DNA from: a bacterium
Lineage (GTDB): Bacteria; Bacteroidota; Ignavibacteria; Kapaibacteriales; UBA2268
Direction: 5' to 3'
Assembly (NCBI GenBank): GCA_024711295.1
Contig: JANJTB010000006.1
Coordinates: 186,001 to 250,000, forward strand
DNA: 64,000 bases
Shown in pieces: positions 10,005 to 49,907 of this stretch. The position numbers and the translations under genes are program-made. Every line of letters begins with the position of its first letter. Positions within the stretch are counted from its first letter, which is position 1. The notes beneath the pieces are model-generated. The model was not told the origin of the DNA, searched no databases, and saw only the letters and a list, made by a program, of their open reading frames with translations.

Positions 10005-12944
10005 TCAAATTGCTGAAAAAGATAGTATAATAAACTTGACAGCTCCTTTTGTATTAAGCATAGGAATTCCATTTAGAACTACTTCTTTTTGGAATTCATC
10101 ATTTATATTTACTAATGCTGAATAATTATGAATTGGTGACTTGTTTTCAAGTATTTGCCTGAAAGGACTATTTAAAATTAATTGCTTTTTCGTGTTTAAA
10201 TCAAAAAATTCGACTTTTATACTTTTATCAGCAATAACATCATCAATTTCAAGTAGTTCTTTTGCTGCTTGGTTTATATATATTACTTCACCATTTTCAT
10301 TCAGCATTACTTCAGAATCTTTTGTCACATCAAGTACATTTATCAAAAAATCATTATCAAGGGCAAGCAAATCCTCATATTCTTTGATTTTGTGTATATC
10401 AGTAAACGTGATTACAACACCTTTTACAGCATTTTCGATAGTTCTGTAAGGAATGATTTTCATCAAAAACCATTCATCATCTCTTGATTTGAGTTCAACT
10501 TCGTATGGCTTGAGTGTTTTTAATGTTTTGTTGATTTCGTTAAAGAAATCAGGGAAATCAAAGTTGTAAGAGATATGACTAATAGGTCTTCCCATATCGT
10601 CATCAATTAAGTTGACAAACTGAACAGTAGCCGGGGTAAATTTTCTAACCCTCAGCTTCATATCGAGAAAGACAGTTCCGATATTAGTGACATTAAACCA
10701 ATTATTATTGTCATTGTTCAATTCTGTCAATTCTTCAATTTTATTTTGATACTCTGAATTTACTGTATAAAGTTCTTCATTTACAGACTGTAGCTCTTCG
10801 TTGATACTTTGTAATTCTTCATTCGATGCTATCAGCTCTTCATTCGTAGCTTGCAATTCTTCGTTGCTTGTTTCTAACTCTTCAATAGTAGCCTGAAGAT
10901 TCTCTTTTGTATATTTAAGCTCATTCTCAATATCCTGAAGTCTTAAATTGAGATTGCTGTCCATCTCGAAAACATTATCTACACCATCTTGCTCACCAAT
11001 TACAGGTTTTTCATCGAATACAACTAGCAAAAGATTAGTTTGATTTTTACCTTGTTTAAATAGCTTAACTTTCAGATCTAATGATATTAATTCTTCATCT
11101 TTGGTAAAAGTAACGTTTGAGTATTTAATTTCATTATTATCTTTTAGTACCTTATGTATTGCAGTGCTCAATGCTACAGAGAGTTCACCCGGTACCAAAT
11201 TAAGTATATTTAAAGAAATTTTTCCTGATGGAATTTTTAAGTATCTGTTAGCATCTTTAAATACGTGAACTAACTCATATTTATCATTGATGATGATTGA
11301 TGGAGGTACATAGCTTGAGAATAAATCTCTACTGATGCTTTCGAATAAATCTGCATCTGAGCTCAGTTTTGATTTAATGTCATTAACAGGCAATGATTTT
11401 TTACTTTTTATTGATGGAATATAAAGTTCGTCAATCACCACTTGTTTTGTATTTATGTTGCTTTTATATATTTTCCATTTGTGTTCGACCGGAGTAAAAA
11501 AAGAAGCTAAATCACCAATGGATTCGCTAGAGCCAAGGAACATTATACCACCGGTATTAAGCGAAAAGCTGAATGAAGAAAGGACTTTCTTTTGCATAAT
11601 AGGTTGGAGATAAATTAAAAGATTTCTACAACTAATCATATCAATTTTTGAAAATGGGGGGTCTTTAATGATATTATGAGTTGCGAAAATGACCATTTGT
11701 CTGATTGTATCAACTACTTTAAATACTTGTCCATTTTTTACAAAATATTTTTTCAGAAAATCTTCATTTACATCTGTAACTATACTTTCCGGATAAATTC
11801 CGGCACTGGCATATTCAATTGCATCCCTGTCAATGTCTGTAGCAAATATCTTAATGTCGTAAACTTTTCCACTTACATTCATGTAGTCATGGAAAAACAT
11901 TGCAAGAGAATAAGCTTCCTCACCGGTAGAACATCCTGCTACCCAAACCCTTATACTTTCACCTGCTTTTTTTAATCCTATAATTTCTGGAATTGCCTTG
12001 AACCTTATTAGCTCGAATGCTTCGTAATCTCTAAAAAATTTAGTTACTCCAATCAAAAGCTCTTTATATAATACATTTGCTTCGGTAGGGGAGTCGCTTA
12101 AAAGCCGATAATAATCTTCGATATTAGCTATTTGGTGAACACTTATTCTTCTTTCAATTCTTCTAACTATTGTATTTGGTTTGTAATAAGTGAAGTCAAC
12201 CCCGGTTCTTGATCGAATAGTCAGTAATATTTTTGAAAGAATATCATCATCTTCAATTGTTATAGTGTTAGCTCTCTCCGAAGCTGAAACCAAAGGATGT
12301 TCAATGTATTTAGATAGTTGTTCACCCATCATTTCAGGAGGTAGAATATAATCAACTAATCCAGTTGATATGGCACTTTTGGGCATTCCGTCAAATTTAG
12401 CGGTTTCTTCATCCTGAACCATTACCATACCACCTGCACCTTTAATGGCTCTTATCCCTAATGTCCCGTCGCTTCCTGTTCCCGACAAAACAATACCTAT
12501 AGATTTTTCACCCAAGTCTTCAGCAAGTGAACGAAAAAAGACATCAATCGGTAGATTCAAGCCTAAGTTTTGAATTTGGTCAGTGAGATATAATTTTCTG
12601 TGAAATATTGTAAGGTTCTTTTTTGGAGGTATCAAATATATTGAATTTTTGGCAATATACATGCCATCTTCGGCTCTGTAAATTGGCAGTAATGTATGCT
12701 TACTAAGAAGCTCCACCATCAAACTTTTGTAATCGGGTGATAAATGTTGGACAACAACATACGCAAGACCACTATCAGGTTTGATGTGTTTGAAAAATTG
12801 CTCTAATGCTTCTAAGCCACCTGCAGATGCTCCTATTCCAACTATCGCGAAGTCATTATTGGCGGATTGTGTCTTATCTGTTAAATTGATGTTTTCTGAC
12901 TGGTTTTCACCAGCATGCTGAACTTTTCTTCCTTTGTATGCCAT
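10005..12944 (-). CDS. CheB-CheR fusion with coiled coil and PAS domains
   Basis: A 979-residue protein. The N-terminal CheB methylesterase domain (about 30-215) keeps the triad Ser40 (GASAGG), His67 (QHLSPD) and Asp159 (SGTGSDGT). It lacks a receiver domain. A CheR methyltransferase follows (about 230-490), with the SAM loop [14 protein letters not shown] and CRNLLIYL. Next are a PAS-like region (about 550-640), a Glu/Leu/Asn-rich coiled coil (about 665-748) with repeated NEEL units, and two PAS-like domains to the end. No histidine kinase domain follows. Homologues are often hybrid sensor proteins; here output probably goes through protein partners or through methylation/demethylation. No other chemotaxis genes are in the window, so the substrate is unknown. 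Confidence 0.88.
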
Positions 12945-16544: not shown

Positions 16545-16919
16545 TTAATTTAGAATTATAGGTTCCGATACGCCAAAAATATCTAGAATGGCTTTTTTAT
16601 AATCTTCTTTTCTCATAGCACCTACCGACATTTGAGGTCTTTCACTTTTAGTTGGTATAAATAATACCGAGGGGATGCTTCTTATACCAAATGCGGCTGC
16701 TAATTCTTGTTCAGCTTCTGTATCAACCTTGAAAATATTGACTTTTCCATTATAATCATTGGATAATTCTTCCATAATAGGTGATAACATTCTACATGGC
16801 CCACACCAGTCAGCATAAAAATCAATTATAACAGGTAACTCACCGTTATATTCCCACTCTGTTTTGTTCTCAAAGTCAAATATTGTATCAATAAATTCTT
16901 GTTTTGATAAAAATTTCAT
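16545..16919 (-). CDS. trxA: Thioredoxin
   Basis: A 124-residue thioredoxin with the WCGPC active site in FYADWCGPCRMLSP and the cis-Pro segment GIRSIPSVLF. The length is slightly above the 105-110 of classic thioredoxins, because of a 15-residue N-terminal extension. There is no signal peptide, so it acts in the cytoplasm as a protein disulfide reductase. It is co-transcribed with the DUF6132 gene. It could be one of several thioredoxins of the organism. Confidence 0.93.
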   Translation of the reverse strand: MKFLSKQEFIDTIFDFENKTEWEYNGELPVIIDFYADWCGPCRMLSPIMEELSNDYNGKVNIFKVDTEAEQELAAAFGIRSIPSVLFIPTKSERPQMSVGAMRKEDYKKAILDIFGVSEPIILN

Positions 16920-17015: not shown

Positions 17016-17993
17016 TTATTTTTTATATCTTATCAGATTTAAATCCGCCAAAACTATTGATAATACAGATTCTAAGACTACTGGTACGCGTAGGGCAATA
17101 CATATATCATGCCTTCCAATAATTTTCAGGTTCTGTTTTTCATTCGTTTCAAAATTTAAAGTGCTTTGTGTTACAGAGATAGACGAAGAAGGCTTAACAG
17201 CTACTCTGAATACCAAGTCATTACCATTGCTGATACCACCGTTGATTCCACCGGAATTATTAGTTGCGGTTTTACCTGATTTATCAAAAATCAAATCGTT
17301 ATGTTCCGAACCATTCATACATGCACTATTAAATCCGGAGCCGAACTCAATTCCTTTTATAGCTGGAATTGAAAAAACCATGTGGGAAATCAATGATTCA
17401 AGACTATCAAAAAATGGTTCACCTAATCCAAGAGGAACATTTTTTGCGGTACACTCAACAATTCCACCAACAGAATCACCGTACTTCAGAGCATTGTCAA
17501 TTGTTTTTTCAATCTCATCACTGCCACCAACTGATATTAGCCTAGACTCAATAACGATTTTTGGGATGATTTTTTTTGCAATTACTCCCGCTATAACCAA
17601 ACTTGTGGTTAAGCGGCCTGAAAAATGCCCGCCACCTCTATAATCATTAAATCCGTAATATTTTTGGCTTGCAACAAAATCTGCATGGCCGGGTCGGGGT
17701 GTACTTTTTACAAAATCGTAATCTTTACTATTGATATTTTTATTCGGAACTTCAATTAATATCGGTGCGCCAGTAGTGAAACCATTAAATATTCCTGTTT
17801 TTAGTAAAATTTCATCCTTTTCCTTTCTAGGTGTTGTTCCTTTGATTTTTGGGTTACGTTTTATGAGGGGTTCTTTAAAATCATTCTCAGACAATGATAA
17901 ACCTGGTGGACATCCATCAATCAAAATTCCTACACATTCTCCATGTGATTCACCAAAGATGTGTACTCTAAAGATCCTACCAAAACTATTCAT
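17016..17993 (-). CDS. aroC: Chorismate synthase
   Basis: About 325 residues; converts EPSP to chorismate with reduced FMN, the seventh step of the shikimate pathway. Motifs: FGESHGE near the N-terminus, RPGHAD, the DYRGGGHFSGRLT loop, and GRHDICIALR near the C-terminus. ATG 17993 is chosen because it starts with MNSFGRIFRVHIFGESHG, the usual position; two upstream in-frame Met codons would add ten residues. It overlaps the aroA stop by 8 bp. The protein is somewhat shorter than the common 350-360 residues but all core motifs are present. It is the last gene of the aro operon. Confidence 0.93.
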   Translation of the reverse strand: MNSFGRIFRVHIFGESHGECVGILIDGCPPGLSLSENDFKEPLIKRNPKIKGTTPRKEKDEILLKTGIFNGFTTGAPILIEVPNKNINSKDYDFVKSTPRPGHADFVASQKYYGFNDYRGGGHFSGRLTTSLVIAGVIAKKIIPKIVIESRLISVGGSDEIEKTIDNALKYGDSVGGIVECTAKNVPLGLGEPFFDSLESLISHMVFSIPAIKGIEFGSGFNSACMNGSEHNDLIFDKSGKTATNNSGGINGGISNGNDLVFRVAVKPSSSISVTQSTLNFETNEKQNLKIIGRHDICIALRVPVVLESVLSIVLADLNLIRYKK

Positions 17994-19212
17994 TAACATT
18001 TGCTCCAATTTTGATAATATCATTCCAAAAGCCAGGGTAAGATTTGCTTACACATTGGGGATTTGAAATGCAAATGGTTTCACTTACTTTAAGTGCAGAA
18101 ACAGCTAATGACATTGCAATTCTATGATCGTTGTGTGGATCTACTAAACCACTCTTTATTTTGCCCGGTTTAACTATCAAACTTTTTCCATCCTGTTTTA
18201 TTGAAATTCCTAATTTAGCATATTCCAAAATGAGAGATTCTATCCTATTTGACTCTTTAAATATTAATCTGTTAACATTATTCAAGTAACAGATTTCATT
18301 TGAATTTATTGCAATTGGAATTATGGCAGGAACCAAATCAGGGCAGTCAGCAAAATCAAACTCAAAACTTTCAATTTTAGATTTAAATACTTCAAAGGAA
18401 TCAGTTCTCTGAGAAAATTTCACGTTTGATTTTTTAAGAAGCTCTGTAATGGAATAATCTGCTTGGCTTGGGTTTTGTCTCAAGCCTGATATTACAATAC
18501 TCTCTTCAGATGCAATTGCTGCAGCAGATATTAAAAATGAAGCACCACTCCAATCACATTCATCATAATCATAAAGTTTTGAGTACTTTTGGTTTCCTGG
18601 TATGTAAAATTCATTGAAATTAGAACGGGTTATTGTTATATTGTATGATTTTAAAATTTCAATTGTCAAATTGATATAGGGTTCGCTTTGCAAGTTTTTA
18701 ACTCTTATTTTGGAATCTTGACTCATTATTGGTAAAATCATCAACAATGCAGTTAAGCTCTGACTTGTTTTTGAACAATCAATTTCAAATTCACCTGAGT
18801 ATATGCTGCCGGAGCAATTAAGAATTACAACATCTTCATCGCTTACTACTTCAATTGACAAACCAATTTCTTGTAGTTCGTTTAAATATGGTCTTTTAGA
18901 TAAAGAATGAGACAATTTAAAAATATTTTTTTCTCTAAAAGCCGAAAATATTATTGGTAAAACTCTTAAAGCAAAACCTGATTCGCCCATATAAAATTCA
19001 TTACATGAATTAAAATGAATCAGAGAGTTTAGCACAATAATAACATCATCAGAAATAATTGGATTATCTACAACTAATTCTCTGCCTGATAAAAAATTAC
19101 ATATCAGCACCCTTTGTTGGATACTTTTTGATTTAGGGGCTTCAACAATACCTTTAAGTTTAGAGAAGGTTAAGCATTTCATCATGTATTCTGCGAATTG
19201 TTGACGTGACAT
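17986..19212 (-). CDS. aroA: 3-phosphoshikimate 1-carboxyvinyltransferase (EPSP synthase)
   Basis: Sixth step: transfers enolpyruvyl from PEP to shikimate 3-phosphate. It has 408 residues, near the usual 420-430. Motifs: KSKSIQQR (substrate loop), GESGFALRVLP (counterpart of GNAGTAMRP), SQSLTALLMILP, the KESNRI segment and DPHNDHRIAMSL. The PEP-loop sequence ESGFALR deviates from the common NAGTA(M/I)R, which could change inhibitor sensitivity. ATG 19212 overlaps the preceding aroE-aroK gene by 53 bp; ATGs at 19185 or 19182 (MMKCLTFSKLKG) fit the family start better. It is translationally linked to aroC. Confidence 0.9.
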   Translation of the reverse strand: MSRQQFAEYMMKCLTFSKLKGIVEAPKSKSIQQRVLICNFLSGRELVVDNPIISDDVIIVLNSLIHFNSCNEFYMGESGFALRVLPIIFSAFREKNIFKLSHSLSKRPYLNELQEIGLSIEVVSDEDVVILNCSGSIYSGEFEIDCSKTSQSLTALLMILPIMSQDSKIRVKNLQSEPYINLTIEILKSYNITITRSNFNEFYIPGNQKYSKLYDYDECDWSGASFLISAAAIASEESIVISGLRQNPSQADYSITELLKKSNVKFSQRTDSFEVFKSKIESFEFDFADCPDLVPAIIPIAINSNEICYLNNVNRLIFKESNRIESLILEYAKLGISIKQDGKSLIVKPGKIKSGLVDPHNDHRIAMSLAVSALKVSETICISNPQCVSKSYPGFWNDIIKIGANVNE

Positions 19213-20413
19213 TGTTACTGTTTTCTACTATTAAGTCTGAGTATTTATAATATGTTAGTTCTCTGCTGTAATATATTTCAGTTAAGTTGTTTGTATCCAG
19301 TAATGGTCTATCAGTTTTATCCCTTGCTAATCTATCCTGTATTAAATCAAAATCTGAGTAAACCCAAATATTGTAACACATTAAATTTACAAATTGAGCT
19401 GCTTTAGGGTGTGTCAAAGTGCCACCACCAAGGGATAATAATTCGTATTTATTTGATTTTACAGCATTTTCCAAAATTTTGAACTCAATTTCTCTAAACT
19501 GGTTAATACCATCTTCTCGAATGATTTGTGCAGAAGTTTTATTCGTATATTTTGCTATTAGACCGTCCAAGTCAGCTGATTTAATATTATGTGAACTATG
19601 CAATTCCTTAGAAACTAACGATTTACCACAAGCCATCATGCCTGATAAGACAACTGTTTTATGTTGCTTGATTTTTAAGGTATCATGGACAGCAGAAGCT
19701 AACAATTCTATGTTGAATAATTTGCTAATGTTTGGTATTGCTTGAAGAATTAGCCAGTCAACTCCACCTATATATTTTACATTTAAATTATTTAAAAATG
19801 GTTTATGATAGATTGTATCAATCAAAATAAGGTTAGGTTTATATTCCAAAAATTCAAAATTTATTTCGGATTTTGGGATGGTATTTATTAAAACATCATA
19901 TTCCATGAGGGAATCTAGTTCAATCAAGTTTAATGTATTAACAATGTTGCTTTCAAATTGTGCTCTCAATCCTTCTCTAACAGCAATGGTAATATTATTA
20001 TATTTCAATTTATTAAGTTGATAATATGACAAAAATGCAGTATCACCACCACCCAAAATTAATAATCTAGAATTCTTTGGAATTTGACAATTATTGATAA
20101 TGGTATTAAAGGCATCAATATCTGTATTATTGGCAACTAAGCCTTTATGGTTATTTATGAAAAGTGAATTGAATAGTCTTAAATCAATTTCATTTTTATT
20201 TTCAATACAGGTTGCTACATCAGACTTATAGGGAGAAGTAATATTTAAAAATTCAATATTTAGCTTTTTTGCAAGTTCAAGTGCATCCTCAAATGATGAT
20301 GAACAAATTCTGGTATAATGTGAATCAATATTTAATAAATTGCTTATACCATTGAAAATATTAGGGCTTAAGCTGTGTGATATAGGTGATCCAACGACTG
20401 CAAATTTTCTCAT
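19160..20413 (-). CDS. aroE-aroK: Fused shikimate dehydrogenase - shikimate kinase
   Basis: A 417-residue fusion for steps four and five. Residues 1 to about 248 are shikimate dehydrogenase: SPISHSLSP (9-17), catalytic Lys63 (NITSPYK) and Asp98 (NNTD), and a nucleotide loop GGGDTAFLS (121-129). Residues from about 252 are shikimate kinase: P-loop GMMACGKS (258-265), DLD (281-283), FRE with Arg307, GGG (329-331) and lid DRPLL (Arg369). Both active sites look complete, so a bifunctional enzyme is expected. I see no stop or frameshift between domains. ATG 20413 shares four bases with the aroD stop. Confidence 0.9.
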   Translation of the reverse strand: MRKFAVVGSPISHSLSPNIFNGISNLLNIDSHYTRICSSSFEDALELAKKLNIEFLNITSPYKSDVATCIENKNEIDLRLFNSLFINNHKGLVANNTDIDAFNTIINNCQIPKNSRLLILGGGDTAFLSYYQLNKLKYNNITIAVREGLRAQFESNIVNTLNLIELDSLMEYDVLINTIPKSEINFEFLEYKPNLILIDTIYHKPFLNNLNVKYIGGVDWLILQAIPNISKLFNIELLASAVHDTLKIKQHKTVVLSGMMACGKSLVSKELHSSHNIKSADLDGLIAKYTNKTSAQIIREDGINQFREIEFKILENAVKSNKYELLSLGGGTLTHPKAAQFVNLMCYNIWVYSDFDLIQDRLARDKTDRPLLDTNNLTEIYYSRELTYYKYSDLIVENSNNVTSTIRRIHDEMLNLL

Positions 20414-21054
20414 ATTTGCAATAATTCCATTATTCGGGATAATTCGTCGAAAGATAATTGTGAGGGTTCAGTCTTATTGTTTTCTGTTGAAGCATACATG
20501 AATGGAGCCCCTTTCTGAATTGCCAAAATCCTACTTAGTGAGCCAATGTCTCCAAGATTAAAAGCTATAAGTTTATTTGTCTTAGCATTTTTATAGAGTT
20601 CCATAGTCCTGATAACATCTGAAATATTATTTGCCTTAAAACAAAGTTTTGATATGTCTGCATTAAATGACTGCATTTTATAAAATATCGTATTTAAATT
20701 GCTTGGGTCTGGTGTATAATCATGATTATGATATGAAAGAATCAATTTTGTAGAGCTTTTGGCTAGTTCATTTTCTAAATGAATGTGTATAGTAGTATAA
20801 TCATTTAAGTCAATATCAATATAACTAACGTTACAAAGCAATGCTTTTCTGTAAATTGTAATTGCATAATCAAGATCATAATTGTTGCAATTAAGCCTAT
20901 AAGTTACAATGATATTAGTGTGATTATTTAATAAATAATCCACATAATTTAGCTCCAAATTCAATAAATCAAGTCTTAGTTCTGTTAAGTCATGATTTCT
21001 ACATATAACATCAATTTCCTGAATGTTTCCACTGCCTAAACTAATACAAATCAT
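20410..21054 (-). CDS. aroD: Type I 3-dehydroquinate dehydratase
   Basis: A 214-residue class I enzyme (third step), forming an imine with its substrate. Schiff-base Lys136 (ADISKLCFKA) and His109 (SYHNHD) are 27 residues apart, as in the Salmonella enzyme (His143, Lys170). Substrate-binding Glu25 and Arg27 (TELRLD), Arg175 (SLSR) and Gln199 (EPSQL) are also present. It is slightly shorter than the usual 225-250. It overlaps aroB by 14 bp upstream and the aroE-aroK gene by 4 bp downstream. Confidence 0.9.
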   Translation of the reverse strand: MICISLGSGNIQEIDVICRNHDLTELRLDLLNLELNYVDYLLNNHTNIIVTYRLNCNNYDLDYAITIYRKALLCNVSYIDIDLNDYTTIHIHLENELAKSSTKLILSYHNHDYTPDPSNLNTIFYKMQSFNADISKLCFKANNISDVIRTMELYKNAKTNKLIAFNLGDIGSLSRILAIQKGAPFMYASTENNKTEPSQLSFDELSRIMELLQI

Positions 21055-22051
21055 TTATCAGCCTAATGTATTCATCTACTTCAAAATTATAGAACTTATG
21101 TTTACCTATACCTTCAATTAATATTTCCCGTATTTTACCATTATTAATTTTTTTATCATTTTCTAAGACAGCAGAAACAATAGAAGGATCTGCTTTGAAA
21201 TCACTTGATAGTTTAAGAGTTTCCAGTAATTTCGTAATTTTATTGTAATCTTGAGGATCAACTATATTTAACTTCTTCGATATATTCACTGATGTCATTA
21301 TGCCAATCGCAACGGCATCTCCATGAGAAAGGTTATGTTCAATTTCAATGGCATGAGCGAAAGTATGTCCAAAGTTTAATATATTTCTAAATCCACTATC
21401 ATAAAAATCTTGATTAACTATCTTAATTTTTGAGTTGATGGAAGTATTAATTAGTTTTTTTATAGTATCCTGTTTTAAAATTTCATCAAATGATAATTTA
21501 CTTAAATAATTAAACAAATTAATGTCATAAATAATTGCAATTTTGAGTACTTCAGCAATACCTTCATATATTTGCTTATTTGTTAGCGTTTTCAAAAAAT
21601 CAGTGCATATTAATGTTTTGTCCGGAATTTTGAAACATCCAATCACATTCTTATATGGGATGCAATTTAATCCATTTTTACCACCAATTGAAGCATCAAC
21701 TTGAGCTAACAATGTTGTTGGTATGAGCGTTAATTGAGTTCCACGTTTATATGTAGATGCAATGAATCCTGCAAAATCGCAAACTATCCCGCCACCAATC
21801 CCGATAACATTAACATTACGTTCTATACCGATATCTAGCATTTGATTTATACATGATGAATAATTGTCAAGCGATTTATTATTTTCTAAAGATGTTATGA
21901 TGAATGGTTTGAGTCGTAGAAATATTTCCGGATATAGTTTGGTTAGCAAATCATCGGCTATTATGAAAGTATTATTTTGATTTAATACATTTGTGATATC
22001 ATCAATTTCAGAAAATTTAACTGTGCTATGTTTATCATGATAAATTAGCAT
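21041..22051 (-). CDS. aroB: 3-dehydroquinate synthase
   Basis: A 336-residue NAD- and metal-dependent cyclase (second step) converting DAHP to 3-dehydroquinate. Motifs: GIGGGIVCDFAGF, YKRGTQLTLIPTTLLAQVDAS, GGKNG, EGIAEVLK and the metal-binding NFGHTFAHAIE and HGDAVAIG. The length fits the family (330-360). ATG 22051 lies 2 bases after the stop of the DAHP synthase gene, and the 3' end overlaps aroD by 14 bp. Confidence 0.94.
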   Translation of the reverse strand: MLIYHDKHSTVKFSEIDDITNVLNQNNTFIIADDLLTKLYPEIFLRLKPFIITSLENNKSLDNYSSCINQMLDIGIERNVNVIGIGGGIVCDFAGFIASTYKRGTQLTLIPTTLLAQVDASIGGKNGLNCIPYKNVIGCFKIPDKTLICTDFLKTLTNKQIYEGIAEVLKIAIIYDINLFNYLSKLSFDEILKQDTIKKLINTSINSKIKIVNQDFYDSGFRNILNFGHTFAHAIEIEHNLSHGDAVAIGIMTSVNISKKLNIVDPQDYNKITKLLETLKLSSDFKADPSIVSAVLENDKKINNGKIREILIEGIGKHKFYNFEVDEYIRLINDLY

Positions 22052-22053
22052 TT

Positions 22054-23088
22054 CTAGAAGTATTTATTGATATAGTCAATTATTCTTTCAAGCTCAATAG
22101 GTTTGATTGATTGTTTGCCATCAGATAAAGCTTCTTCCGGCTTGTTGTGTGTTTCAATTATTAATCCATCAGCACCAAGTTCTAATGCTGCGATAGAAGT
22201 TTTTACTACATATTTCGAACGACCACATGCATGAGAAGGGTCGAATACTATTTTAAGATTTGTTTTCTCTTTAAGTTCTAATATTGTAGCCAGGTCTGGA
22301 GTATTTCTTAAATCGGAATCAATTTGTTCAAATGTTCTAATACCCCTTAGGCATAGTATCACGTTAGGATTGCCCTCATTAATAATGTATTGGGCAGATA
22401 GTAAAAATTCGTTAACTGTTGATTGAAATCCTCTTTTAAGTAATACAGGCTTTTTGTCTTGAGCTGTTCTTTGTCCAATTTGCTTTAGAAAACCATAGCT
22501 GAACATATTTCTACTACCGATTTGGATTACATCTACCAAATCATAAAGTTCATTCAACTGCCTTGAATCAGTAAATTCTGATACTGTGTACATGCTATAT
22601 TTATCAGCAATTTTCTTCATCAAAGCTAATCCTTCATCCTCCATACCCTGAAATGAAAAAGGTGAAGTTCTGGGTTTGAAAGCTCCACCTCTTAATAATT
22701 TTATACCTGACTTGCTTAAATGGTTGGCAATGTTACATAGTTGCTCTTCAGATTCTATGGTACATGGGCCTGCTATAATAAATGGCTCAGAATTCAACAC
22801 TTCAAATAATTTGTTATTAGTGTTGATTCGATAATTATCGGCTTTCGAATAAAAAAGTATTTCTCTAAAAACACCTTCAATAAGTTGAGGATTTATGTTC
22901 TGTGAAAATTCGCCTTTTAATTTTTCAACAATTTCCAACTCTCTTTGTCTATCATATACCGAAATATTGTTGCATTTTTTTTCACTAATAATTTTATCAG
23001 ATAGCTCTTTTCTAAAAATTAACAGATCTATGATATTTTTATCAATATTGTCAATTTCAGCTCTAAGCTTTCTTATTTCCTCATTCAT
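22054..23088 (-). CDS. aroF: Bifunctional chorismate mutase / DAHP synthase
   Basis: A 344-residue fusion. Residues 1 to about 85 are an AroQ-type chorismate mutase (RAEIDNIDKNIIDLL, RQRE). Residues about 90-344 are a type I-beta DAHP synthase with AGPCTIES, RGGAFKPRTSPFSFQG, GSRNM, KRGF, DPSHACGR and ETH. It makes DAHP from PEP and erythrose 4-phosphate, the first step. In the known AroQ-DAHPS proteins (as in Bacillus subtilis) the mutase domain senses chorismate or prephenate and inhibits the synthase, so the same feedback is likely. It is the first aro gene, 21 bases downstream of the SlyD-like gene stop. Symbols differ between species (aroA, aroF, aroG). Confidence 0.93.
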   Translation of the reverse strand: MNEEIRKLRAEIDNIDKNIIDLLIFRKELSDKIISEKKCNNISVYDRQRELEIVEKLKGEFSQNINPQLIEGVFREILFYSKADNYRINTNNKLFEVLNSEPFIIAGPCTIESEEQLCNIANHLSKSGIKLLRGGAFKPRTSPFSFQGMEDEGLALMKKIADKYSMYTVSEFTDSRQLNELYDLVDVIQIGSRNMFSYGFLKQIGQRTAQDKKPVLLKRGFQSTVNEFLLSAQYIINEGNPNVILCLRGIRTFEQIDSDLRNTPDLATILELKEKTNLKIVFDPSHACGRSKYVVKTSIAALELGADGLIIETHNKPEEALSDGKQSIKPIELERIIDYINKYF

Positions 23089-23109: not shown

Positions 23110-23535
23110 TTAATTGATACTTAGAATCTCAACTTCAAAAATTAAATCTTCGCCTGCAAGTTCATGATTGGCATCAATGCTAACTTCATTTTCTCCGATT
23201 TCTACTATCGAAGCGAATAGTGAATTACCTTCGGGCATGGGCATTTCCAATACATCGCCAACTTGAAGCTGGTCATCTACCTGTATATCTTCTTTATCAA
23301 CAGTGAAAATAAGATCTTCGCTATGTGGACCATAAGCATCGTCAACTGAGATATTAATAGTTTTACTTTCGCCTACCGACATACCAAGAATACCATTTTC
23401 AAAACCTGGTATTACCATGTTTTCACCTAATGTAAAAACAAATGGGTTTTCGTTGTCAGTTTCGTCAAATATTGTTCCATCTGTAAGTTTTCCTGTATAT
23501 TTTACGGATACAGTGTTGCCTAATTCTGCTTTCAT
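23110..23535 (-). CDS. SlyD-like FKBP-type peptidyl-prolyl isomerase
   Basis: A 141-residue cytoplasmic PPIase. The FKBP core (VSVKYTGKLTDGTIFDET, GENMVIPGFENGILGM) carries an inserted flap domain between about residues 65 and 120, and ends with NHELAGEDLIFEVEIL, the SlyD pattern (NHxLAGxxLxFxV). It lacks the His/Cys-rich metal-binding tail of enterobacterial SlyD. It is likely a folding catalyst and chaperone. It lies 21 bp upstream of the aro genes on the same strand, so it may head the transcript without a pathway link. Confidence 0.9.
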   Translation of the reverse strand: MKAELGNTVSVKYTGKLTDGTIFDETDNENPFVFTLGENMVIPGFENGILGMSVGESKTINISVDDAYGPHSEDLIFTVDKEDIQVDDQLQVGDVLEMPMPEGNSLFASIVEIGENEVSIDANHELAGEDLIFEVEILSIN

Positions 23536-23636
23536 AATAGGATTACCTCAATAAATTAAATACAATTTTTAAAATGGGAATTCTTCTATATTAAAAATAA
23601 GTAATTATTTAGATTAAAAAAAATATTGGTTAATAT

Positions 23637-24566: not shown

Positions 24567-25643
24567 TTACATTTTTTTGAACAAGTTCTTAATTTTTTCT
24601 CTTGAAATTTTTTCTTTCCAGTTTTTTCCAAGAGCATTCTCCCACAAGGGCTCTAAGACCAATGAAATGTCTGTCATTTTTTCAAAATCATCTTCACTGA
24701 GTCCGTTTGTAAGTCCAGTGGGTAGGGTAATATGATTATAATCCATGATTTTTCTAAATTCTACTACATAATCATGGTAATATTCATCAAGCTGATTAAA
24801 AACAATACAGTTGCTCAGACCGTGATGTAATTTTAAAACATAAGATATACCATAAGATAATGCATGGCAAACCCCGACCTGCGAATATGCAATTGAAAGC
24901 CCACCAAATAGAGAAGCCATCATGAGTTTATCATCTTTTTCACTTTTATCACCTTCTTTTAAGAATACTTCTCTGCATAACTCAAGAGATTTTTCTCCGA
25001 AAGAACGGCTAAATTCATTAAGATATGTGCCAGTAAGTGATTCTACATTGTGAATATAACAATCCATTGCTGTATAGAATCTTTGCTGGTTAGGCACTTC
25101 TGCAATCAATTCAGGATCTAAAATCATTTGATTAAATACTGTAAAGTCTGAGTTTATACCCAATTTCTTTACAGGTCCGCTAAGAACTGTGGTTCTTGAT
25201 ACTTCTGCTCCAGTTCCTGAAATTGTAGGTATTCCAACATGATAAATTGCCGGTTTCTTAATTAAATCCCATCCCTGATAGTCGGCGGCACTTCCTTCGT
25301 TTGTTAGCATCAAGGAAATGGCTTTAGCCAAATCCATTGTGCTTCCACCGCCAATTCCAATGATTCCATCGGGTAATTGATCAGAATACTCTTTGATGCC
25401 TTTTACCAAAGCATCAACATAAAAGGTTGTTGGTTCATCAGTTACGTCTGCAAATATAATTCTGTCATTATCCTTAAGTGGTATTCTGGTTAAGAATTTT
25501 ACATTATTTTCAAAAACGTGGTCAATCAAAAATATCATACCCTGAGAATTTGTTGTTCTTTGGTGAGATAAAATTTCATCAAGCTGACTAAAACAACCTC
25601 TCCCGTAAACAACTTTATCTACAAGTTTAAAATTTTTAAACAT
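24567..25643 (-). CDS. kdnB: KdnB-like Kdo 8-oxidase (iron-type alcohol dehydrogenase family)
   Basis: A 358-residue member of the metal-dependent alcohol dehydrogenase family. Features are the nucleotide-binding IGIGGGSTMDLAKA, GTGAEVS, and metal ligands in MDCYIHNVES, GVCHALSYG and LHHGLSN. In Shewanella oneidensis KdnB oxidises the C8 hydroxyl of Kdo to the aldehyde, which KdnA then aminates. The neighbouring kdnA and kdsB genes and waaA make the same role very likely here, rather than a fermentative alcohol dehydrogenase. It overlaps kdsB by 8 bp. Confidence 0.85.
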   Translation of the reverse strand: MFKNFKLVDKVVYGRGCFSQLDEILSHQRTTNSQGMIFLIDHVFENNVKFLTRIPLKDNDRIIFADVTDEPTTFYVDALVKGIKEYSDQLPDGIIGIGGGSTMDLAKAISLMLTNEGSAADYQGWDLIKKPAIYHVGIPTISGTGAEVSRTTVLSGPVKKLGINSDFTVFNQMILDPELIAEVPNQQRFYTAMDCYIHNVESLTGTYLNEFSRSFGEKSLELCREVFLKEGDKSEKDDKLMMASLFGGLSIAYSQVGVCHALSYGISYVLKLHHGLSNCIVFNQLDEYYHDYVVEFRKIMDYNHITLPTGLTNGLSEDDFEKMTDISLVLEPLWENALGKNWKEKISREKIKNLFKKM

Positions 25644-26370
25644 TTTTCATCCTTTTTATAAATTCATTTGCTTTAACTAAATCTTCTTCAGTGTCAATTT
25701 CTATACCCATGTAATTAGTTTCGTAAACTTTAATTTTCATCCCATTTTCGAGAAACCTTATAGGTTCAATTTTTTCAAGTATTTCGAGAGGCGTGGGCTT
25801 TAAACTACTAAATTTGATTAATGCATCTTTCCTGAAAGCATATATTCCTATATGCTCGTAATATATAGCTCCAGTATCATTATCTCTATTATAAGGAATT
25901 GGAGCTCTTGAAAAATATAGTACAGAACCATCCAATGAAAACACAACTTTGACATAATTGGGATCACTGATCTGCATTTCATCATCAATTTTTTGAACTA
26001 AGGTAGCCACATCAACTTTCTTATCGTTGAAAGCAGAAATTAACTTTTGCACAGCTTCTTTGTTAATAAATGGTTCATCGCCCTGAATATTGAAAATAAT
26101 GTCAGCTTCCAGTTTTTCTGCTGCCTCTGCTATCCTGTCAGTTCCAGTGGAATGATTTTTTATGCTATACATTGCTTTACCACCGTTACTGACAATATCA
26201 TTATAAATAAGATCATTATCAGTTACTACAATAACCTCGTCAAAAATTCTGAGATTTAAGGCTTCATCATAAGTAAAACGTATAACAGTTTTCCCAGCCA
26301 GATTTGCCATCATTTTGCCAGGGAATCTTGTTGAATCATACCTTGCAGGTATTAGTGCAATAATTTTCAT
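25636..26370 (-). CDS. kdsB: CMP-Kdo/Kdo8N synthetase (cytidylyltransferase)
   Basis: A 244-residue nucleotidyltransferase that couples CMP from CTP to Kdo-type sugars. Motifs are ALIPARYDSTRFPGK at the N-terminus, NIQGDEPF, the FSRAPIPYNRD segment, and YEHIGIYAFRKDAL. In Shewanella the paired KdsB uses Kdo8N, and here the flanking kdnA and kdnB genes suggest the same preference. The length is typical (240-255). The start codon overlaps the kdnA stop (ATGA). Confidence 0.93.
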   Translation of the reverse strand: MKIIALIPARYDSTRFPGKMMANLAGKTVIRFTYDEALNLRIFDEVIVVTDNDLIYNDIVSNGGKAMYSIKNHSTGTDRIAEAAEKLEADIIFNIQGDEPFINKEAVQKLISAFNDKKVDVATLVQKIDDEMQISDPNYVKVVFSLDGSVLYFSRAPIPYNRDNDTGAIYYEHIGIYAFRKDALIKFSSLKPTPLEILEKIEPIRFLENGMKIKVYETNYMGIEIDTEEDLVKANEFIKRMKNV

Positions 26371-27566
26371 TTTAAGCCATTTTGAAAGAATACTTTTTCG
26401 ATATTCCTTATTCTATTTTGTAGTTCATCATCTGTCCAATTTAATTTAATCTGCATAGAAATTGTTCTGCTCATAATATCATCGGATTGATAAAGCTCTA
26501 ACTTGTTATAATCAGGTAAGTTCGCCAATGAAGATTGTGCCATCTTCATAGCAAAGTTCATATTCTTGATGTGGTGCCAATTACGTATGTAGTGCCAATT
26601 ATTATCATACCAATAAAAAGAGCCATCTACTCCGTTTTGGGCCAATTCAGAAGCAATTTTTCTGGTTAAATCCTCGCTCGGTAACATGAAACTAATGAAA
26701 GTGCAAGAATCACCATCAGGGTCTGGAACAACTCTTAGTTTCACATCATCAAACTTTGATATACAATCAGAAATAATCTTGTGATTTTTTTTCTGAATTT
26801 CAATAATTTTGTTTAATTTACGAAGTTGAGCTACACCAACAGCTGCATTTAATTCACTGATTCTGAAATTTACACCCATAAACTCGTGCCCTTCTTTACC
26901 TCTGTCATTACCAATATGATCATGGCCATGGTCGTGAAAAGCATCAGCTCTGTTATAAATTGACTCATTGTCAGTTACAATACCACCACCTTCACCGCAA
27001 GTTATTGTTTTTACGGAATCAAAAGAAAAACATCCAACAATACCCCAAGTGCCTGCAAATTTTCCTTTGTAATGGGCTCCGGTTGCCTGACAGGCATCTT
27101 CCATCAACATTATATTATGTTTATTGGCAACCTCTTTAATTTTATCTATTTGAGCCATCGATCCACACATATGAACCGGTAAAATACCTTTTGTACGTTC
27201 GCTAATGTAATTTTCTAGTTTTGTGGGGTCGAGGCAAAGTGTTTCATCAATTTCTGCAAAAACAGGAACGGCACCGGCCTGAATAACACCTTCTACAGTT
27301 GCCACAAATGTAAATGGCGGTAAAATAACTTCATCGCCATATCCAACTCCACAGGCAGCTAAAGCAGCACTTAGAGCTGAGGTGCCACTTGATGTCAGTA
27401 AACAGTATTTGGAGCCTATATATGAAGCAAATTCTTTCTCAAAAGTTTTAGCTTTCCAAATGTCATTTCTGGCTGAATCAAAACCATATCTGAAAAGTAC
27501 TCCTGTTTCGAGAACTTCGTTAACACTATCTCTTTCTTCCTGACCGAAAATTTCAAATCCCGGCAT
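26367..27566 (-). CDS. kdnA: KdnA-like 8-amino-3,8-dideoxy-manno-octulosonate transaminase
   Basis: A 399-residue PLP-dependent aminotransferase of the DegT/DnrJ/EryC1 (sugar aminotransferase) class. The PLP-binding lysine is in FSFDSVKTITCGEGGG; the DAC of MLMEDACQATGA stabilises the cofactor. The Shewanella KdnA enzyme transfers an amino group to 8-oxo-Kdo to yield Kdo8N, and the operon with kdnB and kdsB gives the same assignment here. DegT-family enzymes can use other nucleotide sugars, so the exact substrate rests on context. It is 40 bases after waaA and overlaps kdsB. Confidence 0.87.
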   Translation of the reverse strand: MPGFEIFGQEERDSVNEVLETGVLFRYGFDSARNDIWKAKTFEKEFASYIGSKYCLLTSSGTSALSAALAACGVGYGDEVILPPFTFVATVEGVIQAGAVPVFAEIDETLCLDPTKLENYISERTKGILPVHMCGSMAQIDKIKEVANKHNIMLMEDACQATGAHYKGKFAGTWGIVGCFSFDSVKTITCGEGGGIVTDNESIYNRADAFHDHGHDHIGNDRGKEGHEFMGVNFRISELNAAVGVAQLRKLNKIIEIQKKNHKIISDCISKFDDVKLRVVPDPDGDSCTFISFMLPSEDLTRKIASELAQNGVDGSFYWYDNNWHYIRNWHHIKNMNFAMKMAQSSLANLPDYNKLELYQSDDIMSRTISMQIKLNWTDDELQNRIRNIEKVFFQNGLK

Positions 27567-46027: not shown

Positions 46028-49000
46028 TTAGTAAGCCAAATATTGTGACAACCACTTTTCTGCAACTTGCTTGTCAATACCTTTTCTGTTGGCATAAGAT
46101 TCTACCTGATCCTCTGTTATCTTTCCAACAGCAAAGTATTTACTTTCAGGATGTGAAAAATAGAGCCCGCTTACAGATGCAGCCGGCACCATCATACAAC
46201 TATCTGTAAGACTAATTCCTGAAGACCCGGCATTTAAAATATTCATAATTTTAATATTTTCTGTATGATCAGGCAATGAAGGATAACCTGAAGCTGGTCT
46301 GATGCCTGAGTACTTTTCGGAAAGCAATTCGTCAATACTTTTGTTTTCATCTGAATTATAACCCCAAATCTCTTTCCTTGTCTTTTCGTGAAGTAGTTCT
46401 GCAAATGCTTCAGCCAATCTATCAGATATAATCTTGATCATTATTGATTTGTAGTCATCATGTTCAGACTCATATTTTCGGACCAACTCATCTGTACCTA
46501 TACCTGCAGTACATGCAAATACTCCCAAATAATCCGGCTTACCACAGGATTTAGGTGCTATATAATCAGCTAATGATAAGTTAGGAGTATTGTTTTGTTT
46601 AGCTTGTCTCCTTAATAAATTGAAGACTTCTATCACATCATCATGACTTTCACCATAAACTTCAATGTCATCATGGTTTACTGTATTTGCCGGTAGAACT
46701 GCAACAATACCATTTGCCTTCAGTAGCTTTCTCGAAATGACTTCGTCAAGCATTGTGTTTGCATCATCGAATAGTTTTTTTGCTTCCTCGCCTTTTTCAG
46801 GATTATCAAAGATTTGAGGGTATCTTCCTTTAATTTCCCAAGTAACAAAGAATTGAGTCCAATTGACATACTTTCTAATTTCTTGTAATGGGTAGTCATC
46901 AAACCTAAAAACACCTTTCTTGATTGGTACATTAATCTTATAATTATCCCAGTCAGTGTTTAGTTTGTTTTTTACAGCTTCCAGATATACAGTTAAATTT
47001 TTGTCCTGTAAATTTTTGTAATGATTATCCCTGATCTCATTATACTCTCTTTCCAATTTTTCGAGGAAAGTTACTTTGTTCTGATTTAATAAATTGGATA
47101 CTACTGTTACACTTTTACTTGCATCCAATACATGTATCACAGGTTTTCTGTAGTTAGGAGCAATTTTGACTGCTGTGTGAATCCTTGAAGTAGTAGCACC
47201 GCCTATGAGTAGGGGAACATCCATGCCTTCTCTTTCCATCTCCTTTGCAATATGAACCATTTCATCAAGTGAAGGTGTAATCAAACCGCTAAGTCCAATA
47301 ATATCAGCACTTATCTCTTTTGCTGTCCTGAGAATTTTTTCGGTTGGAACCATTACACCCAAATCAATTACTTCATAATTATTGCAAGCTAAGACTACTC
47401 CAACAATATTTTTTCCAATATCATGAACATCACCTTTAACTGTTGCTAAAAGCACTTTCCCTGCACTTTGTCGCTCACCCTTTTTAAGTTCTTTTTCGAT
47501 GTATGGAATTAGATACGCAACCGACTTTTTCATCACTCTTGCGCTTTTTACAACCTGAGGTAAGAACATTTTACCTGAACCAAATAATTCACCTACAACG
47601 TCCATGCCTTTCATCAATGGACCTTCTATGACATCAAGAGGATTGATTACAGTGAGTCGCGCTTCCTCGGTATCTTCAATTATATGCTCAACTATACCTT
47701 TAACTAATGAATAAGTCAGTCTTTCATTGACTGGTAAACACCTCCATTCTTCTAGTTTATCTTCCTTTTGCGATTGTGATTTGAATTTATCAGCGAATTC
47801 CACCAATCTTTCAGTTGAATCCGGACGCCTGTTCAGAAGAACATCTTCTACCAAAACAAGCAGTTCTTTGTTTATCTCTTCATACACTTCTAATTGACCG
47901 GCATTAACAATGCCCATGTCCATACCGGCCTTGACAGCATGATACAAAAATGCAGAGTGCATTGCTTCACGTACTTTATTATTGCCCCTGAAGGAGAAAG
48001 AAATATTGCTTACTCCACCACTTACCTTTGCTTCTGGTAAGTTCTCCTTGATCCATTTTGTTGCTCGCAAATAATCAACAGCATAATTATTATGCTCTTC
48101 TATTCCAGTTGCTACTGTTAAAATATTTGGGTCAAAAATTATATCATAAGGTGCAAATCCAACTTCATCTGTAAGTATTTTGTAAGCTCTTTCACAAATT
48201 TCAATCCTTCTTTCGTATGTATCTGCTTGACCATTCTCGTCAAAAGCCATTACTATTACTGCTGCCCCGTAATCCAGAATTTTTGATGCGTGTTCTTTAA
48301 ATACCTGCTCACCTTCTTTCAGTGATATTGAGTTGACAATTCCCTTACCCTGAAGACATTTCAAACCTGACTCGATAACACTCCATTTTGATGAGTCAAT
48401 CATTATAGGTACTTTGGCAATGTCAGGTTCTGAAGCAATCAAGTTAAGAAATCTTGTCATAGATGCTTCGGAGTCCAACATTCCTTCATCCATATTCACA
48501 TCAATTATTTGAGCACCATTTTCCACTTGTTGAAGAGCTACAGCGAGAGCTTCTTCGTATTGGTCAGATTCAATCATTTTTCTAAATTGAGCTGAACCTG
48601 TAACATTAGTTCTTTCACCAACATTGATAAAATTTGAATTTTCGAAGACGATTAGGGGCTCTAAACCACTCAGTTTAAAATATTTATTAGGTTTGGATAC
48701 TTGTCTTGGTTTAAAATCCGAAACAATATTTTTTATGGCATTGATATGCTCAGGTGTTGTTCCGCAGCAGCCACCGACAATATTAAGCAATCCTTCATCT
48801 GAATATGATTTAAGAATATCTGCCATTGAATCAGCTGTTTCATCGTAACCTCCGAAAGCATTAGGCAGTCCGGCATTTGGATACAAACTAGTAAAGCAAT
48901 CAGCAATCTCAGATAATTCGGTAATGTATGGTCTCATTTGCTCTGAACCCAAGGCACAATTCAACCCTACTGAAAGTAGGTTTGGAGCATGTGAAATTGA

Positions 49001-49711
49001 AATCCAAAAAGCTTTGGTTGTTTGTCCTGATAACGTTCTTCCGCTTTGGTCAACAATCGTTCCTGAAATCATCACTGGAAGATAAATTCCTGAATCTCTA
49101 AAATACCTTGCCGTTGCGTATATTGCAGACTTTGCATTAAGGGTATCAAAGATGGTTTCGATTAAAATTATGTCACAACCACCCTCTACTAATCCCTTAA
49201 TTTGTTCATAGTAAGCAGTGGCCATTTTGTCGAATGTAATTGCCCTGTATCCAGGATTATTTACGTCAGGAGATAATGATAATGTTTGGTTTGTGGGTCC
49301 TATTGCACCTGCAACATACTTAAATTCACCCGGATGTAATTTTAGATAATCATCTTTAGCTTTTTTTGCCAAACGAGCTGATTCGTAATTAAGTTCATAA
49401 ATTATATTCTCCAAATGGTAATCTGATTGAGCAATGTAAGTACCACTGAAAGTATTTGTCTCAATAATATCAGAGCCTGACTCCAAATATTGTTTGTGTA
49501 TGTCATAGATGATTTGAGGTTGTGTTAAACTGAGTAAATCATTATTACCTTTTAAGTCGAATTCGAAATCCCTGAATCGCTTTCCTCTAAAGTCCTGTTC
49601 AGTTAGTTTATGCCTTTGAATCATTGTTCCCATGGCACCATCTAGAACCAGGATTCTATTTCTAAGGTCCTCGGATATTTCTTTATATTTATTTCCCGTT
49701 ATCTTTCTCAT
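46028..49711 (-). CDS. metH: Cobalamin-dependent methionine synthase
   Basis: A four-module protein of 1227 residues from ATG 49711, the same length as the E. coli enzyme. The homocysteine domain has DGAMGTM, and zinc ligands in GLNCALG and [10 protein letters not shown]. The pterin-binding domain has [12 protein letters not shown] and [12 protein letters not shown]. The B12 domain has [12 protein letters not shown] (His ligand of cobalt) and the C-terminal activation domain ends [12 protein letters not shown]. It transfers the methyl group of 5-methyl-THF to homocysteine; it makes the cell use or import vitamin B12. An in-frame TTG at 49735 would add 8 residues. It heads a metH-DUF454-cdd unit. 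Confidence 0.95.
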
Positions 49712-49907
49712 ATTGTAGGAGTGTTTGAATTTCAAATTATAAGGTGAAGTTAAAAAAAGGAAAATATTTTATTCAAACATTTATAAGTGAGTTTCAAAGG
49801 AGAATACTGATTTTTTTTTAAGAATATCGAAACCAAAAATTATAAATCACGTATTGTATATTATCTATTTAATATTTTGTTTTTTAAAAAAGAGATAACG
49901 GGAATTT

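Follow-up and report, generated by a model that had tools for sequence, protein, structure and literature searches.

Background

The fungal AROM protein unites steps 2-6 of the shikimate pathway in one chain, with the domain order B-A-K-D-E, and clustered aro genes are also known from Thermotoga, Thermococcales and Chlamydia. The chlamydial genes, arranged as aroA-aroL-aroC-aroB-aroDE with a D-E fusion, serve a chorismate pathway that operates without aromatic amino-acid synthesis. Here we analyse a group of genes that encode all seven steps of the pathway, from aroQ-DAHPS to aroC, in the order of the reactions, in a 64,000-nt stretch of a genome of the order Kapaibacteriales (Bacteroidota; Ignavibacteria; UBA2268), namely positions 186,001 to 250,000 of contig JANJTB010000006.1 of assembly GCA_024711295.1; this whole stretch is called the window below. 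The genome, of 3.45 Mb in 40 contigs, has a completeness of 100%. Its likeness to Chlamydia would lie in making chorismate without aromatic amino acids; it differs in that the chlamydial gene order is rotated and the phylum unrelated.

Near-complete aro operons that are not colinear with the pathway have been published for Enterococcus faecalis and Streptococcus pneumoniae (Song et al. 2005, PMC1173090), the orders given in Table 7 of that paper being 4-1-2-7-tyrA-6-5-pheA or 3-4-2-7-tyrA-...-6-5-pheA if the gene letters are read with the steps usually assigned to them. As in the window, many steps of the common pathway stand in one apparent operon; however, 10 of 15 pairs are colinear in those listed operons, which are tied to tyrA and pheA, whereas the operon of the window is strictly colinear and neither TyrA nor PheA was found in its genome. 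Aro genes packed on one strand are also carried by plasmids, as in Thermovirga lienii (pTLIE01, locus L106), with a K-B fusion, and Ilyobacter polytropus (pILYOP01, L102), whose aro-trp cluster holds the nearest named AroC. Both plasmid clusters differ from the window in having other orders and a prephenate dehydrogenase gene, and aroD is in neither.

How operon order relates to pathway order is an old question for which the evidence is mostly statistical. Over 70 Escherichia coli operons, about 60% of pairs are colinear, 71.6% where expression is low and 44.8% where it is high, and the study that reports this argues that such order shortens the stalls that follow chance enzyme loss (Kovacs, Hurst and Papp 2009, PMC2684527). 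The likeness to the window is that gene order equals reaction order, which the same study reports only for lowly expressed operons; the difference is that a statistical trend over 70 operons is there described, and here one seven-step pathway with 21 of 21 pairs in order. Our literature search lay outside most subscription journals; none of the papers that it listed describes an aro-men operon or a shikimate operon colinear with its pathway, which, given that scope, is weak evidence of novelty.

Organization of the operon

Six minus-strand open reading frames (ORFs), which span 23088 to 17016, encode the seven steps and are read in the order aroQ-DAHPS, aroB, aroD, aroE-aroK (one ORF), aroA and aroC (Table 1). 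The ORF map and the Pfam and NCBIfam profiles agree on all seven activities and on the tight packing, as the initial annotation had proposed, and gene order equals reaction order, which is what Kovacs et al. call a colinear metabolic operon. Reckoned from the likely starts, the junctions are +2, -14, -4, -23 and -8 nt in transcription order, aroD overlapping aroB by 14 nt and aroE-aroK by 4 nt. Gaps or overlaps of 2-53 bp had been given before, of which the value of 53 probably does not hold: it stems from the upstream ATG at 19212 that opens the aroA ORF, and the ATG at 19182 suits homology better (MKCLTFSKLKGIVEAPKSKS), which makes -23 the likely junction. For aroC, the most likely start is 17993 rather than 18023. 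The chance of six units standing in one given order is 1/720, a value that is not a tally of independent events because related genomes have the order by descent.

Table 1. Predicted features of the shikimate locus and chorismatase-like genes of related genomes (positions in the window unless a locus is named)
Feature	Position	Strand	Evidence and remarks
aroQ-DAHPS, chorismate mutase (CM_2) + DAHP synthase (DAHP_synth_1), step 1	22054..23088	-	PF01817 59.1 bits, PF00793 208 bits; NF009239 305 > 279
aroB, 3-dehydroquinate synthase, step 2	21041..22051	-	TIGR01357 305.7 > 305; discordant tree
aroD, type I dehydroquinase, step 3	20410..21054	-	PF01487 124 bits
aroE-aroK, shikimate dehydrogenase + shikimate kinase, steps 4-5	19160..20413	-	PF08501 (Shikimate_dh_N) 47.3 bits, PF01202 (SKI) 90.2 bits; one ORF
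aroA, EPSP synthase, step 6	17986..19182	-	PF00275 194.5 bits; probable start
aroC, chorismate synthase, step 7, short form	17016..17993	-	PF01264 370.5 bits; probable start
FKBP-type peptidyl-prolyl isomerase	23110..23535	-	PF00254 78.2 bits; probable first gene of unit
Intergenic region, FKBP gene to divergent ORF	23536..23636		ORF map; putative promoter region
Thioredoxin gene	16545..16919	-	TIGR01068 103 > 96.8; 96 nt downstream of aroC
Chorismatase-like genes	L045:15877-17184; L052:728-2089; L056:1885-3228; L059:2103-3389; L042:7999-9225; L167:2359-3000		Similar to FkbO/Hyg5 chorismatases

The predicted enzymes have catalytic motifs that align with solved structures, the roles of the residues being general knowledge. 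AroQ-DAHPS retains the KPRTSP and DPSH motifs in the alignment with Protein Data Bank structures, AroD the SYHN and SK residues, and the Lys, Arg, Glu and Asp residues of AroA align with solved EPSP synthases (EPSPS). AroD, AroE, AroK and AroA are divergent, scoring under the NCBIfam equivalog cut-offs and over those of Pfam, and in the AroE part Pfam reports the substrate-binding domain only.

It is plausible that the six aro ORFs form a single transcript, of which the FKBP gene may be the first gene: it ends 21 nt upstream of aroQ-DAHPS, and an FKBP gene stands 5' of DAHPS also in two genomes of the same genus (G001 and G002) and in G026, G039 and G046. A divergent ORF begins 101 nt beyond it. 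Downstream, the unit may continue with the thioredoxin gene, a neighbour found again in G002. Between 15900 and 24000 there were no terminator-like sites, against 2.8 expected from shuffles, and promoter-like matches were at chance level (44 against 50.7).

A separate observation concerns AroA. At the position of solved E. coli EPSPS that we take to be Gly96, 12 of the 22 AroA rows of the family have Ala (ESA motif), and four lack the Arg a few residues further on; the AroA of the window has ESGF and the Arg. A Gly96 to Ala change in EPSPS is known to reduce glyphosate sensitivity.

Gene order in related genomes

We surveyed 119 relatives, 54 of the same family and 65 of other families of the order (coded G for genome, L for locus, g for genus and f for family), with aroB, aroC and aroD as markers of the pathway. 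Each marker is present in 47 of the 119, all three in 41, none in 67 and one or two in 11, so that the pathway is nearly all-or-none. The corresponding numbers are 27, 19 and 8 of 54 in the own family and 14, 48 and 3 of 65 in the others.

Among the 27 genomes of the family with the three markers, 12 have the complete DAHPS-B-D-EK-A-C block (G000, G001, G002, G011, G012, G022, G026, G036, G039, G044, G046 and G050), with gaps of up to 1331 nt in the four genomes of genus g21. Ordered fragments are B-D-EK-A-C near a contig end (G009), DAHPS-B-D-EK-A (G008), D-EK-A-C (G017), DAHPS-B-D (G019, G042 and G053) and D-EK-A (G021 and G035); aroC is inverted and adjoins the block in G013, and the aro genes are split into two blocks on opposite strands in G029 and G040. 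By manual count, aroB and aroC lie at most 10 kb apart in 16 of these 27 genomes and in 5 of the 15 other genomes of the order that have both. In a sample of the phylum, aroC was found in 225 and aroB in 227 of 247 genomes; outside the order, the two lie within 10 kb in 5 of the 95 genomes with both places listed, three of these being class relatives with B-DE-A-C. Clustering, said at first to be rare in bacteria, is uncommon in the phylum at large. It is common in the own family, however, and families elsewhere in the order and class have it too; near-complete, non-colinear aro operons have also been published for Firmicutes (PMC1173090, Table 7).

Families f8 and f10 and genus g47 of f7 have DAHPS-B-D-E-A-K-C, in which 20 of 21 pairs follow the pathway (two overlapping frames cover aroD-aroE in G104 of f7), f4 has DAHPS-B-DE-A-K, and the class families f13 and f19 have B-DE-A-C. 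Since all of these have nearly the same order, the order predates the own family. Strict colinearity is a derived state: the relatives have A-K-C, that is, steps 6-5-7, and in the own family aroK is fused to aroE, all 26 of 26 AroK frames also containing AroE. As to flanking genes, FKBP is common to g1 and g25 and a chorismatase-like gene to g16 and g21, and others are shared as well.

Origin of the individual genes

Gene trees were quick maximum-likelihood searches, with long branches and, in some tests, few outsiders, and approximately unbiased (AU) tests set the own family against the operons of the order and class. The AroC and AroA tests excluded the duplicate loci L078, L081 and L083 and the long branches L031 and L106, that of AroC also 9 of the 13 f30 rows; the tests for AroB, AroD, AroE, AroK and DAHPS excluded L031, L106 and L145, with four DAHPS rows of another type, and in some sets rows under a score or length limit were dropped. 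L031 and L106 were kept in the AroB and AroA trees with wider outgroups.

A single clade with the order and class was rejected for AroC (AU p 1.5e-84), and vertical descent was rejected for AroA (p 0.013; p 7.1e-5 with wider outgroups) and, more weakly, for AroB (p 0.009; p 0.024 with wider outgroups). A first wider test of AroA, with p 1.7e-6, was set aside, as it included L066, a suspect row with an end branch of 3.14 that may be a paralogue. For AroE one clade with the order and class is compatible with the data (p 0.417) and for AroK it is not rejected (p 0.094); in the free trees AroD forms one clade with that of the order and class (support 98), as does DAHPS (support 90, with only two outsiders). 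The nearest named AroC proteins are those of the Ilyobacter polytropus megaplasmid (56%) and Acholeplasma sp. (49%), against 41.9% for Parabacteroides. Core length agrees with the foreign signal of the AroC tree: apart from a truncated row of 253, the AroC cores of the family have 317-330 amino acids (320 in the window), close to the 322 of Acholeplasma, the 327 of Ilyobacter and the 321 of G149 of f25; the rows of f4, f7, f8, f10, f13 and f19 have 344-352. The three genes B, A and C also stand together in G149 (DAHPS-B-A-C) and in Acetoanaerobium (B-A-C-E), and in the AroB tree families f30, f22, f34, f37, f45 and f48 cluster with Parabacteroides and Prevotella (support 100).

Neighbouring genes thus have conflicting trees at conserved positions, as far as these quick trees go, which is the mark of a mosaic operon. 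Foreign AroC, AroA and, more weakly, AroB appear to sit in the slots of the old genes, and for AroD, AroE and DAHPS the trees accord with common descent with the operon of the order.

Gene fusions

Besides the family-wide E=K fusion, single frames join D=E=K in G011 and G040 and E=K=A in G037, these genes being unfused in G024 of the same genus. In other families we found D=E (f4 G065, f8 G060, f13, f19 and f7 G094), B=D=E (f7 G059, G067, G080, G085 and G090; f8 G068 and G075), D=E=A (f10 G062) and A=K (f8 G068), as well as chorismate synthase joined to chorismate mutase, steps 7 and 8, in G170 of f13 (L109) and G277 of f19 (L108). Except for this last type, all fusions link neighbours in operon order. 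Ten were verified with Pfam, the dehydroquinase domain of G075 being under the Pfam cut-off. That the seven steps reside in separate proteins, as first described, does not quite hold, with aroE and aroK fused in the window and other neighbours in relatives, and the comparison made with AROM as a colinear arrangement also fails, since only 5 of 10 pairs are in order in its chain. The likeness is that relatives of the window operon fuse neighbouring steps, at most three of the five of AROM in any one chain among those examined; in the window operon itself, E-K is the only fusion among these five, and CM-DAHPS the only other one.

The three-domain fusions and A=K lie in loci L126, L054, L038, L064, L065, L128 and L067, and in G012 (L039) a free chorismate mutase frame directly follows aroC.

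Use of chorismate

TyrA (PF02153) was not found in the genome of the window, the only one searched for it, and PheA (PF00800) was found in none of the 54 family genomes, all 14 of 14 controls being positive in each case; PheA is present in 7 of the 65 other genomes of the order, all of f7. The sole PF00425 place in the genome of the window is PabB (NF005486 459.5 > 275), overlapped by a PabC-like class IV aminotransferase gene, a pair that is predicted to drain chorismate to something other than aromatic amino acids; no TrpE-type enzyme was found through PF00425, other trp genes not having been searched for. Of its congeners, G001 has PabB and PabC and G002 a PabB-PabC fusion in a 538-amino-acid frame (L189:6260-7873). 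Within the family, 15 of the 27 genomes that have the pathway carry PF00425, against 1 of the 19 that lack it.

In G060 and G068 of f8 and G062 of f10 (loci L063, L065 and L064), the aro operon runs directly into menF-menD-menH-menB-menC, as it does in G075 of f8 (L067), where menH was not detected. In G040 of the own family (L054) a men operon adjoins the aro genes, and men genes lie elsewhere in G008, G013, G024, G027 and G065; in both G062 and G040 the five men proteins pass curated cut-offs. A gene similar to FkbO/Hyg5 chorismatases stands beside the aro operon on the same strand in G017, G022, G036, G044 and G050, directly upstream of DAHPS in g21 and downstream of aroC in G017, and near aroB in G014; these are six of the 12 pathway genomes that lack PF00425. 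The encoded proteins match PF21168 over its cut-off in 5 of 5 scanned and TIGR04444 with 113-138 bits (cut-off 325), and their solved relatives are Hyg5, presumably the structure entered as a putative pteridine-dependent dioxygenase, and FkbO. With such genes near aro, our reading extends to non-protein aromatics and is not confined to cofactors. An MqnA-like family, tried as a further drain of chorismate, was not adopted, as it is also present in genomes without aro markers.

The best reading of this gene content is a supply of chorismate for non-protein uses, folate in this genome and menaquinone or probably hydroxybenzoates in relatives, aromatic amino acids probably not being the goal of the operon. 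An intact shikimate pathway, this suggests, is not proof of aromatic amino-acid synthesis.

Interpretation of the gene order

An explanation that we consider somewhat better than an even bet is that of an old chorismate operon for cofactors and other non-protein aromatics, mosaic in its genes, with its colinearity kept by inheritance and likely by selection. One translationally coupled transcript would start at the FKBP gene; DAHPS to AroC would make chorismate, PabB and PabC would convert it to p-aminobenzoate for folate, and aromatic amino acids would be imported. An ancestral operon in the order DAHPS-B-D-E-A-K-C would have been extended, in two sister families, into menF-D-H-B-C for menaquinone; in the own family, the shift of aroK into the fusion with aroE would have completed strict colinearity, and foreign versions of aroA, aroC and probably aroB would have displaced the old ones at the same positions. 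If only cofactors are supplied, a low flux is to be expected, which would fit the regime of low expression for which Kovacs et al. (PMC2684527) report colinearity in E. coli, and the operon probably runs at low flux; in such a weakly expressed operon each burst of expression would yield the enzymes in the order of need, and the order would be held by inheritance and, likely, selection.

Several points count against this explanation. AroB is the weakest of the cases for a foreign gene, and the trees are quick, with long branches. PabB is the only drain found in the genome of the window, where chorismatase, UbiC, other trp and most futalosine genes were not searched; the MqnA-like match there is weak (24.4 bits, cut-off 26), which leaves the futalosine route to menaquinone open. 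The DAHPS has a chorismate mutase domain, and no user of its product was detected. The products of chorismatases need not be cofactors, and G009, G011, G012, G021, G028 and G035, which all have aroB, aroC and aroD, show no PF00425, PheA or chorismatase in the stretches examined. In further genomes of the family the aro genes are scattered, and the g21 operons have their long gaps, so that neither the order nor the tight packing is a strict requirement.

It can also be the case, with a chance not far short of even, that colinearity is a frozen accident, the order having been assembled once in an ancestor and kept by descent alone. This is a serious rival: the order is common to related families, operon order is conserved once set according to Kovacs et al. 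(PMC2684527), and 1/720 is not tiny given many operons and pathways. However, the order persisted although aroA, aroC and probably aroB were apparently replaced, the E-K fusion made it stricter, and the pieces of broken operons (DAHPS-B-D and D-EK-A) are still ordered.

A bolder version of selection, which strikes us as rather doubtful, would have the pathway uncoupled from amino-acid synthesis throughout the order, as a low-flux line for folate, menaquinone and hydroxybenzoate-type products whose gene order is actively maintained. Foreign versions of aroB, aroA and aroC would then have entered the right slots, the aroK-aroE fusion would have perfected the order, and relatives would add the next step, menF-D-H-B-C after aroC in two families and, in two genera, a chorismatase-like gene next to the operon. 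Were this so, the clade would provide the clearest natural series for weak expression selecting colinearity and the fusion of neighbours.

That the locus is an ordinary aromatic amino-acid operon, its terminal branches using unrecognised enzymes or lying in assembly gaps, seems unlikely to us. The DAHPS retains a chorismate mutase domain, which is usual where prephenate is needed, and the genome is in 40 contigs; nevertheless it is complete by estimate, PheA and TyrA went undetected in searches whose controls were all positive, and the one PF00425 enzyme is clearly PabB. Transfer of the whole operon from a source like Fusobacteria, Mollicutes or Clostridia we also hold to be improbable. The affinities of AroC to Ilyobacter and Acholeplasma are consistent with it, as are the discordant trees of AroA and AroB, but the results for AroD, AroE, AroK and DAHPS speak against it, and no donor of the same order was found, L031, L102, L105 and L106 all differing; it is ranked under a mosaic origin because AroD and AroE fit vertical descent. 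A metabolon of the kind suggested for AROM, in which channelling or an ordered assembly would account for colinearity and fusions, has a small chance. The repeated joining of adjacent steps (E=K, D=E=K, E=K=A, B=D=E, D=E=A and A=K) speaks for it, but genes that overlap by a few bases can be expected to fuse in any case, and channelling in AROM is itself disputed.

In this clade a single pathway is strictly colinear, has K displaced, is split, variously fused, joined to the next pathway or absent, and the branches to amino acids are apparently absent as well, which makes it a natural test of low expression against frozen accident and metabolon.

Other genes in the window

The window contains no Rfam matches at gathering scores and no tRNAs. 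Upstream of the operon, at 24567-27566, ORFs for an iron-type alcohol dehydrogenase, a CMP-KDO synthetase-like protein and an aminotransferase stand in a row, which we take to resemble the 8-amino-KDO set (KdnA/KdnB/KdsB). A CheB-CheR-PAS hybrid is encoded at 10005-12944, and a B12-dependent methionine synthase, a user of folate, at 46028-49735.

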